A stretch of 64,000 nucleotides of DNA, from assembly GCF_002733955.1 (NCBI RefSeq), contig NZ_NVXQ01000007.1:124492-188491 (forward strand), in the 5' to 3' direction. How positions within the stretch are numbered: position 1 is the first letter of the stretch; each line of letters starts with the position of its first letter. Positions 56,018-57,998 of the stretch are shown in pieces. This DNA is from Hoeflea sp. Lineage in GTDB: Bacteria > Pseudomonadota > Alphaproteobacteria > Rhizobiales > Rhizobiaceae. The notes under the pieces are model-generated. The model searched no databases, had not been told where the DNA came from, and saw only the letters and a program-made list of their open reading frames with translations. The translations under genes were made by a program, and so were the position numbers.

Positions 56018-56305
56018 ATGAGACCGATGAACAGCGGATCGAACAGACTTCTTGATGAACTTGCCAAGGTGATGACTGACGCTGCAGGTGCGGCCCAGGG
56101 TGTCCGGCGCGAGATGGAAACTGCGATGCGCAGTCAGCTCGAGCGGCTTCTCAATTCGATGGACCTGGTCAAACGCGAGGAATTCGAAGCCGTTCGCGAC
56201 ATGGCGATCAAGGCGCGCGAAGAGAATGATGCGCTGGCCAAAAGGCTCGATGATCTCGAGCAGAAGCTCTCCGCAGACTCTGCCTCGGACGCTGCCGACG
56301 CCTGA
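56018..56305 (+). CDS. ubiK: Ubiquinone biosynthesis accessory factor UbiK
   Basis: A 95-residue BMFP/DUF526 protein forming an amphipathic helix and coiled coil: RLLDELAKVMTDAAGAAQGV, REMETAMRSQLERLLNSMDL, RMEEFEAV-like VKREEFEAVRDMAIKAREEN. It assists the aerobic ubiquinone complex. Start could be ATG 56018 or 56027. It heads nothing visible; downstream is a 378-nt region with unusual signals. Confidence 0.88.
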   Translation: MRPMNSGSNRLLDELAKVMTDAAGAAQGVRREMETAMRSQLERLLNSMDLVKREEFEAVRDMAIKAREENDALAKRLDDLEQKLSADSASDAADA

Positions 56306-56357
56306 AGTCAGGCCATTGCCTGCAAGGCCCGGCACGCGAAGATGTGACGGGCTGTTT

Positions 56358-56389
56358 TTATCCACTTTTTTTTACACAGGTTATCCACC
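56358..56389 (+). promoter_or_regulatory. Cluster of three DnaA-box-like 9-mers
   Basis: TTATCCACT (56358-56366), TTTTACACA (56370-56378, a full match to TTWTNCACA) and TTATCCACC (56381-56389) in one 32-nt block, same orientation. Just past it GANTC sites crowd (see 56420-56690). Could titrate DnaA, control a cell-cycle gene or be part of a replication control site. Confidence 0.55.
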
Positions 56390-56397
56390 GGGCGACG

Positions 56398-56416
56398 AGG
56401 CTTAAAAAGCCTTTTG
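56398..56416 (+). terminator. Short terminator after ubiK
   Basis: AGGCTT-aaa-AAGCCT followed by TTTTG; a 6-bp stem with a 3-nt loop. Weak but correctly placed (93 nt after ubiK's stop). Confidence 0.45.
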
Positions 56417-56419
56417 TCA

Positions 56420-56690
56420 GAATCAGTTATGAGTCACGGCGGAATCTGTTTGGCAAGTTGGTCCACAGGCCCCGGCTGACAAAATGCAACCGGGGGACTG
56501 GCGCTCGGACTCTGCATTTATACACTGATTCTAAATGATGATTCGGAACGGGCAGCAAAAAGCCCCGGCAGGAGTCGCTAATGCGGACGCCCCGGGGCGT
56601 GGATGAATCATGCGTGAATGAGGTGTCGTCTGGAGCCATTTGCAACGGCTTTTCCGGGCGCTTGAAAGAAGACTAGGTGGGGCATGAATC
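56420..56690. promoter_or_regulatory. GANTC-dense region (CcrM methylation sites)
   Basis: Nine GANTC sites begin at 56420, 56431, 56442, 56508, 56527, 56540, 56572, 56605 and 56686. About one would be expected in this length at this GC content. In alphaproteobacteria GANTC is methylated by CcrM once per cell cycle and dense sites mark cell-cycle-regulated promoters. Confidence 0.6.
56557..56687 (-). ncRNA. Candidate small RNA on the minus strand
   Basis: A minus-strand terminator is clear: GCCCCGG (56598-56592) pairs with CCGGGGC (56568-56562), 23-nt loop, then TTTTT (56561-56557). A promoter of TTGGAG (56721-56716), 16-nt spacer and TATTAC (56699-56694) would start near 56687, giving about 130 nt. 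No minus-strand gene ends here, so a small RNA is the simplest reason for the terminator. The promoter is weak and inside the next gene. Confidence 0.35.
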
Positions 56691-57184
56691 TCAGTAATAT
56701 CGAATTCGAACGGCACTCCAATCCGGTAGACATGATCGAGTTCGTAGCGGCGTCCAACGACTGGACGTTCGAGCGGTCCGGCGAGCACGAAATCGCGATG
56801 ACGGTCGAGGGGCACTGGACGGATTACCACGTCTCGTTTTCCTGGATGGAAGATTGCGAGGCGCTGCACATTGCCAGCGCGTTCGATATCAAGGTTCCCG
56901 ATGTGCGCGTGACCGAAGTCATGAAGCTGCTGTCACATGTCAACGGGCAGGTGCTGATGGGCCATTTCGACCTGTGGCAACAGGAACACGTGATCATCTT
57001 CCGGCAGTCGCTGTTGCTGGCCGGCGGGGCGGAACCCACCAACCGCCAGGTCGAGGTGCTGTTGTCGAATGCGCTTGATTCCTGCGAAGCCTATTTCCAG
57101 GCCTTCCAGTTCGTCGTCTGGTCCGGGATGGAAGCCAAGTCGGCCATCGCCGCGGTGATGTTCGAGACCCGTGGCGAGGCGTAA
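56684..57184 (+). CDS. YbjN-domain protein
   Basis: A 166-residue cytosolic protein: VDMIEFVAASNDWTFERSGE, EIAMTVEGHWTDYHVSFSWM, WMEDCEALHIASAFDIKVPD and NGQVLMGHFDLWQQEHVIIF fit the YbjN fold, related to type III secretion chaperone-like folds. Start ATG 56684, 1 nt before proC's start region at the other end (stop 57182-57184, proC ATG 57186). Coupled with proC. Confidence 0.88.
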   Translation: MNLSNIEFERHSNPVDMIEFVAASNDWTFERSGEHEIAMTVEGHWTDYHVSFSWMEDCEALHIASAFDIKVPDVRVTEVMKLLSHVNGQVLMGHFDLWQQEHVIIFRQSLLLAGGAEPTNRQVEVLLSNALDSCEAYFQAFQFVVWSGMEAKSAIAAVMFETRGEA

Positions 57185-57185
57185 G

Positions 57186-57998
57186 ATGGTTTCTCCCGAC
57201 AGCCCTCTGGTTCTTGTCGGTGCCGGCAACATGGGCGGCGCCATGCTCAATGGCTGGCTTGATGCGGGAACCGATCCCGCGGCCATTCTGGTGATCGACC
57301 CGAAGCCTTCGGATGCCATGGCGTCACGACTGGCTGCTTCCGGGGTCCGGTGCGAAAGCGCAGCGCCTGAGGGGATGACGGCGGGGATCCTGATGCTGGC
57401 GGTCAAGCCGCAGATCATGGATGCTGTTGTTGCCGGGGTTAAAGGCCTTGTCGGGCCTGAGACTGTCAGTCTCTCGGTGGCCGCGGGCAAGACGCTGGCC
57501 TATTTCGAACAGCGCCTGGGCGGAGCGGTTGTCCGCACGATCCCCAACACGCCGGCCATGGTCGGACGCGGCATCACCGGCGCGGTTGCCAATGCTGCCG
57601 TCAGCGCTGAAGCCAGGGATGAAATCGAAAAGCTGCTGTCGGTCTGCGGTCCCGTCGAATGGGTCGAGGATGAAGCGCTGATCGATGCCATCACCGCGGT
57701 CTCGGGCAGCGGCCCTGCCTATGTTTTCTACCTCGTCGAGTGCATGGCTGAGGCGGGGCGCAAATGCGGCCTGCCGGCGGACCTCGCCATGCGTCTTGCA
57801 CGCGCGACCGTCACGGGGGCCGGCGAATTGATGCACCGGTCCCCGGACGCCGCTGCCACATTGCGGCAGAACGTGACCTCGCCCAATGGCACCACCGCAG
57901 CGGCGCTGTCGGTGCTGATGGCCGAGGACGCATTGCAGCCGCTGTTTGACAGTGCGTTGCGTGCAGCCGCGGATCGCTCCCGCGAACTCGCCGGCTGA
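57186..57998 (+). CDS. proC: Pyrroline-5-carboxylate reductase
   Basis: Last step of proline synthesis, NAD(P)H-dependent. 270 residues: LVLVGAGNMGGAMLNGWLDA, MLAVKPQIMDAVVAGVKGLV, RTIPNTPAMVGRGITGAVAN, VSGSGPAYVFYLVECMAEAG and the C-terminal ARATVTGAGELMHRSPDAAA with LRQNVTSPNGTT. Follows YbjN by 1 nt and precedes csaA by 25 nt; likely one transcript. Confidence 0.95.
   Translation: MVSPDSPLVLVGAGNMGGAMLNGWLDAGTDPAAILVIDPKPSDAMASRLAASGVRCESAAPEGMTAGILMLAVKPQIMDAVVAGVKGLVGPETVSLSVAAGKTLAYFEQRLGGAVVRTIPNTPAMVGRGITGAVANAAVSAEARDEIEKLLSVCGPVEWVEDEALIDAITAVSGSGPAYVFYLVECMAEAGRKCGLPADLAMRLARATVTGAGELMHRSPDAAATLRQNVTSPNGTTAAALSVLMAEDALQPLFDSALRAAADRSRELAG

Follow-up and report, generated by a model that had tools for sequence, protein, structure and literature searches.

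Between a ubiK-like gene and ybjN, the window (the whole stretch of 64,000 nt of Hoeflea sp. DNA that was analysed) contains an intergenic region of 378 nt in which sequences resembling DnaA boxes lie next to a dense series of GANTC sites. The question raised by this locus is what such a combination does there. A preliminary description had offered a regulatory locus under cell-cycle control, a DnaA-titrating site or a replication-linked element. Judging from sequence comparison, we consider it on balance likely that the stretch is a cell-cycle-gated sigma-70 promoter or regulatory region of the ybjN-proC operon. The genes concerned are the following.

56018 to 56305, plus strand: ubiK-like (BMFP) gene, PF04380 with E 1.1e-27, 5' neighbour of the core in 39 of 40 fetched loci
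56684 to 57184, plus strand: ybjN, PF10722 with E 3.8e-29, located 3' of the core in 40 of 40 fetched loci
57186 to 57998, plus strand: proC, TIGR00112 with E 1.4e-71, with its ATG 1 nt past the ybjN stop

The gene next after ybjN is proC, and the two probably constitute one operon. The match of the ubiK-like gene to the NCBIfam UbiK model lies under the cut-off of that model. Upstream of ybjN, we distinguished the following elements.

56358 to 56366, plus strand: DnaA-box-like TTATCCACT, 1 mismatch to TTWTNCACA
56370 to 56378, plus strand: DnaA-box-like TTTTACACA, 0 mismatches to TTWTNCACA
56381 to 56389, plus strand: DnaA-box-like TTATCCACC, 1 mismatch to TTWTNCACA
56404 to 56411: AAAAAGCC block, adjacent to the -120 GANTC and mostly conserved within the family
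56420 to 56446: triple-GANTC array (56420, 56431, 56442) with 11-bp pitch and NNTTA after the first site
56459 to 56467, plus strand: weak DnaA-like box TGGTCCACA, 2 mismatches
56494 to 56502, plus strand: conserved GGGACTGGC block at -35 distance, with CTGGC 18 nt 5' of the proposed -10 and a presumed promoter role
56508 to 56512: GANTC between the proposed -35 and -10, at the same offset in 40 of 79 regions
56518 to 56526: DnaA-like box TTATACACT, overlapping the proposed -10 hexamer TACACT
56519 to 56545, plus strand: 27-nt near-invariant core TATACACTGATTYTAAATGATGATTCG
56521 to 56526, plus strand: proposed -10 hexamer TACACT
56527 to 56531: GANTC right behind the proposed -10 (GANTC in 7 of 79 regions, GATTT in the other 72)
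56540 to 56544: invariant GATTC(G), at roughly +8 relative to the presumed start, in 78 of 79 regions of the family
56572 to 56576: GANTC in the leader, in 7 of 79 regions
56605 to 56609: GANTC in the leader, in 7 of 79 regions

The three co-directional boxes, all on the plus strand within 32 nt, were found at 56358, 56370 and 56381, where the preliminary description had placed them, and the middle one fits TTWTNCACA fully, as it had said. Its count of nine GANTC sites in 271 nt was likewise confirmed: they start at 56420, 56431, 56442, 56508, 56527, 56540, 56572, 56605 and 56686. Eight of them are intergenic, and the ninth (56686) falls inside the first codons of ybjN.

The window as a whole is poor in GANTC, with 92 sites observed as opposed to 310 from shuffles, and the cluster is all the more unusual for it. 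At the density of our sample of the own genome (609 sites in 427,382 nt, or 8.8% of 4.86 Mb), about 0.4 sites would be expected per 271 nt. The nine sites are the maximum of this sample, followed by 4 in the best non-overlapping stretch of the same length. These 427,382 nt contain 236 DnaA-like boxes with no more than one mismatch, and at least three of them came within 69 nt of each other solely at this place, where the automatic count also takes in an overlapping 9-mer at 56368. The preliminary description would have been weakened if such clusters were common; in the 9% of the genome sampled, this was not found for GANTC or for tight box clusters.

Conservation was assessed in Rhizobiaceae with 80 ybjN relatives, 78 of which had a ubiK match upstream and, together with the window, gave 79 regions; L034 and L066 were left out, as they had no ubiK match. 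The core TATACACTGATTYTAAATGATGATTC occurred in all 79 regions, exactly in 54 and with 1-4 changes in the others. The mean pairwise identity was 0.942 for the 27-nt core versus 0.530 at the fourfold sites of ybjN, and the former was higher in 3081 of 3081 pairs, although these pairs are non-independent. The core started 161-182 nt 5' of the ybjN ATG in 79 of 79 regions. We also fetched 40 loci, namely the window's own, 30 from the 97 matching family genomes and all 10 matches of the order. In all 40, ybjN stood 44-155 nt after the core, whereas ubiK preceded the core in 39 at a distance varying from 179 to 621 nt. The fixed place of the core before ybjN and its variable distance from ubiK were counted for the promoter reading. 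The stretch is very probably the promoter of ybjN, and as an element it is old and bound to this gene.

The own genome has one copy of the core and no match to the reversed pattern. Allowing 2 mismatches, 97 of 297 family genomes had one copy apiece and none matched the reversed control; allowing 3 mismatches, 10 of 397 genomes of the order had the core. These two counts indicate that the near-invariance is confined to part of the family, past which just the -10/GATTCG skeleton persists. The S. meliloti locus came from a plasmid collection (5 records), and S. meliloti Ak57 has the same element. L202 (CP090106.1), an S. meliloti record of 3.72 Mb whose title reads plasmid pSymB, includes lgt, ubiK, ybjN and proC and for this reason looks like a mislabelled chromosome.

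The GANTC sites follow the same pattern of conservation before ybjN. Their density was 8.88/kb in the 79 regions as opposed to 0.95/kb elsewhere in the loci. In 78 loci, it reached 12.3/kb over the 300 nt preceding ybjN compared with 2.84/kb over the 230 nt preceding ubiK, and TCCACA/TGTGGA was present in 62 of 78 and 3 of 78 of these same regions, respectively. A loss of both motifs in close relatives, which the preliminary description had named as evidence against itself, did not occur. Counted from the invariant GATTC (0), GANTC stood at 0 in 78 of the 79 regions, at -119 to -121 in 79 and at -32 in 40; the offsets -108 to -110 and -98 were occupied in 33 and 15 regions, respectively. The window's own sites occupy all those offsets plus -13, +32 and +65.

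Read as a promoter, the core would have TACACT (56521-56526) as its -10 and CTGGC (56498-56502) as a weak -35, with a spacer of 18 nt. Transcription would start near 56533, which would place GANTC sites around -25, -6 and +8. The first two letters of the core were altered in 20 of 79 regions, so that the -10 can be TACACT but not TATACA. A consensus sigma-70 scan called no promoter at the site, and the -35 is a poor match. TGATTCG at 56539-56545 matches the extended motif YGAKTCG, attributed to Haakonsen 2015 in the available part of a later report (PMC7987155). Outside Rhizobiaceae, the base preceding GATTCG is often neither C nor T. Another -10/GATTCG pair at offset 19 was not found in the 427-kb sample of the own genome, and no regulon emerged from it.

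The presumed leader of about 150 nt, together with the fact that rhizobia do have cell-cycle sRNAs, EcpR1 and GspR in the parts of the reports available, could also point to a gene for a small regulatory RNA or to a structured leader. We regard this as very unlikely, because Rfam gave no match up to E 1, folding revealed no excess (z -0.07 for the leader, z -1.04 for the minus strand), 21 leader sequences contained 0 conserved base pairs and a terminator scan was negative. The locus is not that of EcpR1, described as lying between divK-pleD and rpmG, nor that of GspR, described between SMc03844 and SMc03845; the latter two we take to be neighbours of acnA, not of ybjN. Inspection by eye suggested a terminator-like hairpin on the minus strand at about 56555-56590, but it was absent from the calls of the scan and other genera do not share it. 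A hairpin at 56399-56416 was rejected since its 5' arm is not conserved in L007 or Rhizobium. The core as a small-peptide gene was also discarded: despite one open frame, its conservation does not look codon-like (by eye).

At the level of the order, we used 30 genomes from 30 genera and 27 families, all 30 with ybjN. GATTCG preceded ybjN in 21 of them and was missing in 9 (shuffles: mean 4.15, maximum 10), and it was found upstream of ubiK in 0 of 22 control regions. The GANTC density was 9.62/kb before ybjN versus 1.05/kb before ubiK. In the 19 of the 21 GATTCG loci that had at least 60 nt upstream, TAnnnT lay exactly 19 nt before GATTCG in 11, as opposed to at most 2 for any other offset in the range 8-44. 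These 11 loci had the consensus TATAYTG, and 5 of the 11 had GANTC at -31/-32. TCCACA/TGTGGA occurred within 350 nt of ybjN in 19 of 30 genomes (shuffles: mean 3.2, maximum 8), and within 260 nt in 16 of 30 before ybjN versus 2 of 22 before ubiK. In other alphaproteobacterial orders, represented by the 20 best-scoring genomes rather than a random draw, GATTCG was present in 4, at no fixed position, and absent in 16. The 21 of 30 within the order against 4 of 20 outside it suggest that the GANTC promoter is characteristic of the order. In L185, L193 and L197, which belong to other orders, repeated ATATATGG-like motifs were noticed by eye before ybjN near the -10 place. GcrA (PF07750) was found in 31 of 31 genomes, as was the RAMA domain (PF18755), the C-terminal domain of CcrM.

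Of the possibilities in the preliminary description, the regulatory locus under cell-cycle control gained support from the kept motifs, the position-locked GANTC sites and the 31 of 31 genomes with GcrA and RAMA, whereas the DnaA-titrating or replication-linked element did not: what is invariant is found upstream of ybjN and resembles a promoter. We favour the ybjN promoter and regard its control by CcrM and GcrA as likely. In the proposed mechanism, CcrM would methylate these GANTC sites late in the cycle and passage of the replication fork would render them hemimethylated. Sigma-70-bound GcrA would read the methylated GATTCG around the -10 and the start and thereby help promoter opening, while DnaA on the upstream boxes would be a further input, linked to replication. 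YbjN (and ProC) would consequently be made in a pulse timed by fork passage at 28-40% of the chromosome from oriC. For DnaA as a real input, we see about equal chances either way; the box at 56518 that overlaps the proposed -10 is a point against a promoter with DnaA input.

Published work, as far as the accessible portions of the reports go, speaks on both sides. GcrA is reported to open methylated promoters (PMC7403470), GcrA from S. meliloti and B. abortus to bind with like specificity (PMC3667746), and GcrA peaks in B. abortus to be enriched 4.4- and 4.7-fold in GANTC (PMC6813329). In Caulobacter, GANTC between -10 and -35 accompanies timed activation (PMC4287350). The gcrA promoter of A. 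tumefaciens, with 6 GANTC in 250 bp, responds to CcrM, and methylation lowers its activity (PMC11514494). Two reports count against the model: promoter GANTC were not enriched in cell-cycle genes of E. meliloti, where single sites are 'not diagnostic' (PMC8725594), and Brevundimonas showed 'small but notable disagreements' with the GcrA model from Caulobacter (PMC7987155). Because Caulobacter GcrA promoters are activated and the gcrA promoter of A. tumefaciens is repressed, the sequence cannot tell the sign of the methylation effect at the ybjN promoter.

The array at -120/-109/-98 raises the possibility that the stretch is the ybjN promoter but its GANTC sites act through another protein, either MucR or a reader of hemimethylated GANTC sitting on the 11-bp array. 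Spacings of 11 bp occurred in 33 regions and of 22 bp in 18, while every other spacing from 6 to 30 occurred in at most 8. The array would thus lie on one helical face. Its first site, with GANTCNNTTA, is present in 79 of 79 regions, and MucR shields GANTC in S. meliloti according to the available part of a report (PMC5172544). We nevertheless find this alternative improbable, given that the complete triple was present in only 14 of 79 regions and that the GC content across the region is 44-62%, with no strongly AT-rich block. Full CtrA sites (TTAA-N7-TTAA) were found in only 2 of the 79 regions.

The DnaA-like boxes bear on a further alternative, in which the locus regulates DnaA in a datA- or DARS-like manner or by titration: the boxes would inactivate, reactivate or titrate DnaA, GANTC would be a replication mark, and the position at ybjN would be incidental or shared. 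We extended the scan of the own genome to 443 kb by adding the hemE/oriC, gcrA and ccrM loci and used windows of 385 nt. The site ranked first for GANTC with 9, ahead of 6 each at hemE/oriC, at another place near hemE and at gcrA. Four non-overlapping boxes per 385 nt were found in four places: this site, hemE/oriC, L126 (2362-2673) and L134 (24-338). The site therefore equals the own hemE-linked region in boxes while being the most GANTC-rich place seen, in single-copy and strongly conserved intergenic DNA. TCCACA/TGTGGA, moreover, was found somewhere in 79 of 79 family regions, and 9 of the 20 genomes from other orders had it too; the DnaA-like box may be older than the GANTC promoter. However, L126 and L134 have their four boxes without any GANTC, and conservation peaks in the core, a short way upstream of ybjN, rather than in the boxes. 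The three-box cluster is a Hoeflea form; in other genera, TCCACA boxes differ in number, sense and place. TCCACA at about -60 of the core gave 49 matches across the 79 regions. A DnaA-regulating locus thus appears unlikely. Box number alone is ordinary, and it is the combination of GANTC with boxes and its tightness that are unusual in the 9% of the genome sampled.

Some places in the own genome deserve mention on their own. Directly 5' of hemE, L204 (3094-3482) carries four DnaA-like boxes and seven GANTC and is the expected oriC of the genome. Six GANTC in 385 nt, with no DnaA box in the best window, lie 3' of hemE (L204, 6476-6860) in or near long open frames. In L199, 5' of the own gcrA, GAATC, GATTC, GACTC and GAGTC occur within about 41 nt, with a further GATTC before gcrA.

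The mix of boxes and GANTC resembles oriC, and one could think of a second replication origin or of chance clustering. In alphaproteobacteria, hemE is a known neighbour of oriC. In six complete relatives, however, the site lay about 1.2, 1.2, 1.4, 1.4, 1.7 and 1.7 Mb from hemE, or 28-40% of the chromosome; the earlier decision against calling it oriC thus held in 6 of 6, and conservation argues against chance clustering. Both readings are extremely improbable. We also entertained a bifunctional replication-checkpoint site, a datA/DARS- or crtS-like site of Alphaproteobacteria, in which oriC-like boxes and helically phased GANTC would sense fork passage by hemimethylation about one third of the way round the chromosome, alter the availability of DnaA and fire ybjN, with YbjN as a cell-cycle effector; this we hold to be speculative and rather implausible.

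On the cell-cycle promoter reading, YbjN becomes the product of interest. The closest named matches of ybjN are from Hoeflea halophila and H. alexandrii (98-99% identity), and the protein belongs to the YbjN/AmyR family (PF10722). A search of solved structures with its sequence gave no match. With the predicted model, which is of moderate quality (pLDDT 72), the fold search returned E. coli YbjN (6vu7) as the top PDB match, together with AmyR (5fr7) and type III secretion chaperones, so the predicted fold of YbjN is type III chaperone-like.

A literature search on YbjN in Alphaproteobacteria and the cell cycle, on GANTC with YbjN or with DnaA-box clusters, and on CcrM or GcrA with UbiK, YbjN or ProC gave no paper on the element among the matches listed; ybjN may well figure in a supplementary regulon table. 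The kind of promoter is already known; what would be new in this cell-cycle promoter is how dense, how firmly locked in position and how widely conserved its GANTC sites are. CcrM/GcrA regulons are reported as rewired between species, according to a title (PMC7987155), and the direct CcrM regulon of A. tumefaciens was compared, in the available part of the report, for orthologues in the Caulobacter or Brevundimonas regulons (PMC11514494). A promoter that has kept its GANTC layout over a large part of an order would represent a rare fixed point in this network. It points to the chaperone-like YbjN as a probable cell-cycle output and would offer a short, testable promoter for the reading of hemimethylated GANTC.

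Among known systems, the site resembles the GcrA/CcrM-dependent Caulobacter promoters of mipZ, podJ and ctrA P1 in having GANTC at or near a sigma-70 promoter and the extended YGAKTCG; for mipZ, two juxtaposed GAnTC are described in the part of the report available (PMC3667746). It differs from them by its up to nine GANTC, the invariant GATTCG 3' of the presumed start, conservation through much of the order, another target gene and a dependence that is predicted only. The gcrA promoter of A. tumefaciens (PMC11514494, available in part) shares the strong over-representation of GANTC, and the own gcrA upstream region is also clustered; unlike the ybjN site, the own gcrA window is without a counted DnaA box, and the A. 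tumefaciens promoter serves another gene, which is repressed. The combination of DnaA boxes with GANTC is found in the hemE-linked alphaproteobacterial oriC as well, but our site is far from hemE, stays with ybjN and has a promoter-like core. In datA and DARS, sites for IHF (and Fis) accompany DnaA boxes and lead to hydrolysis or regeneration of ATP-DnaA. The locus is like E. coli datA, DARS1 and DARS2 (DARS: PMC6090056, available in part) in being an intergenic group of DnaA boxes outside the origin, and unlike them in its promoter-like core at ybjN and in a box layout that is not conserved between genera.
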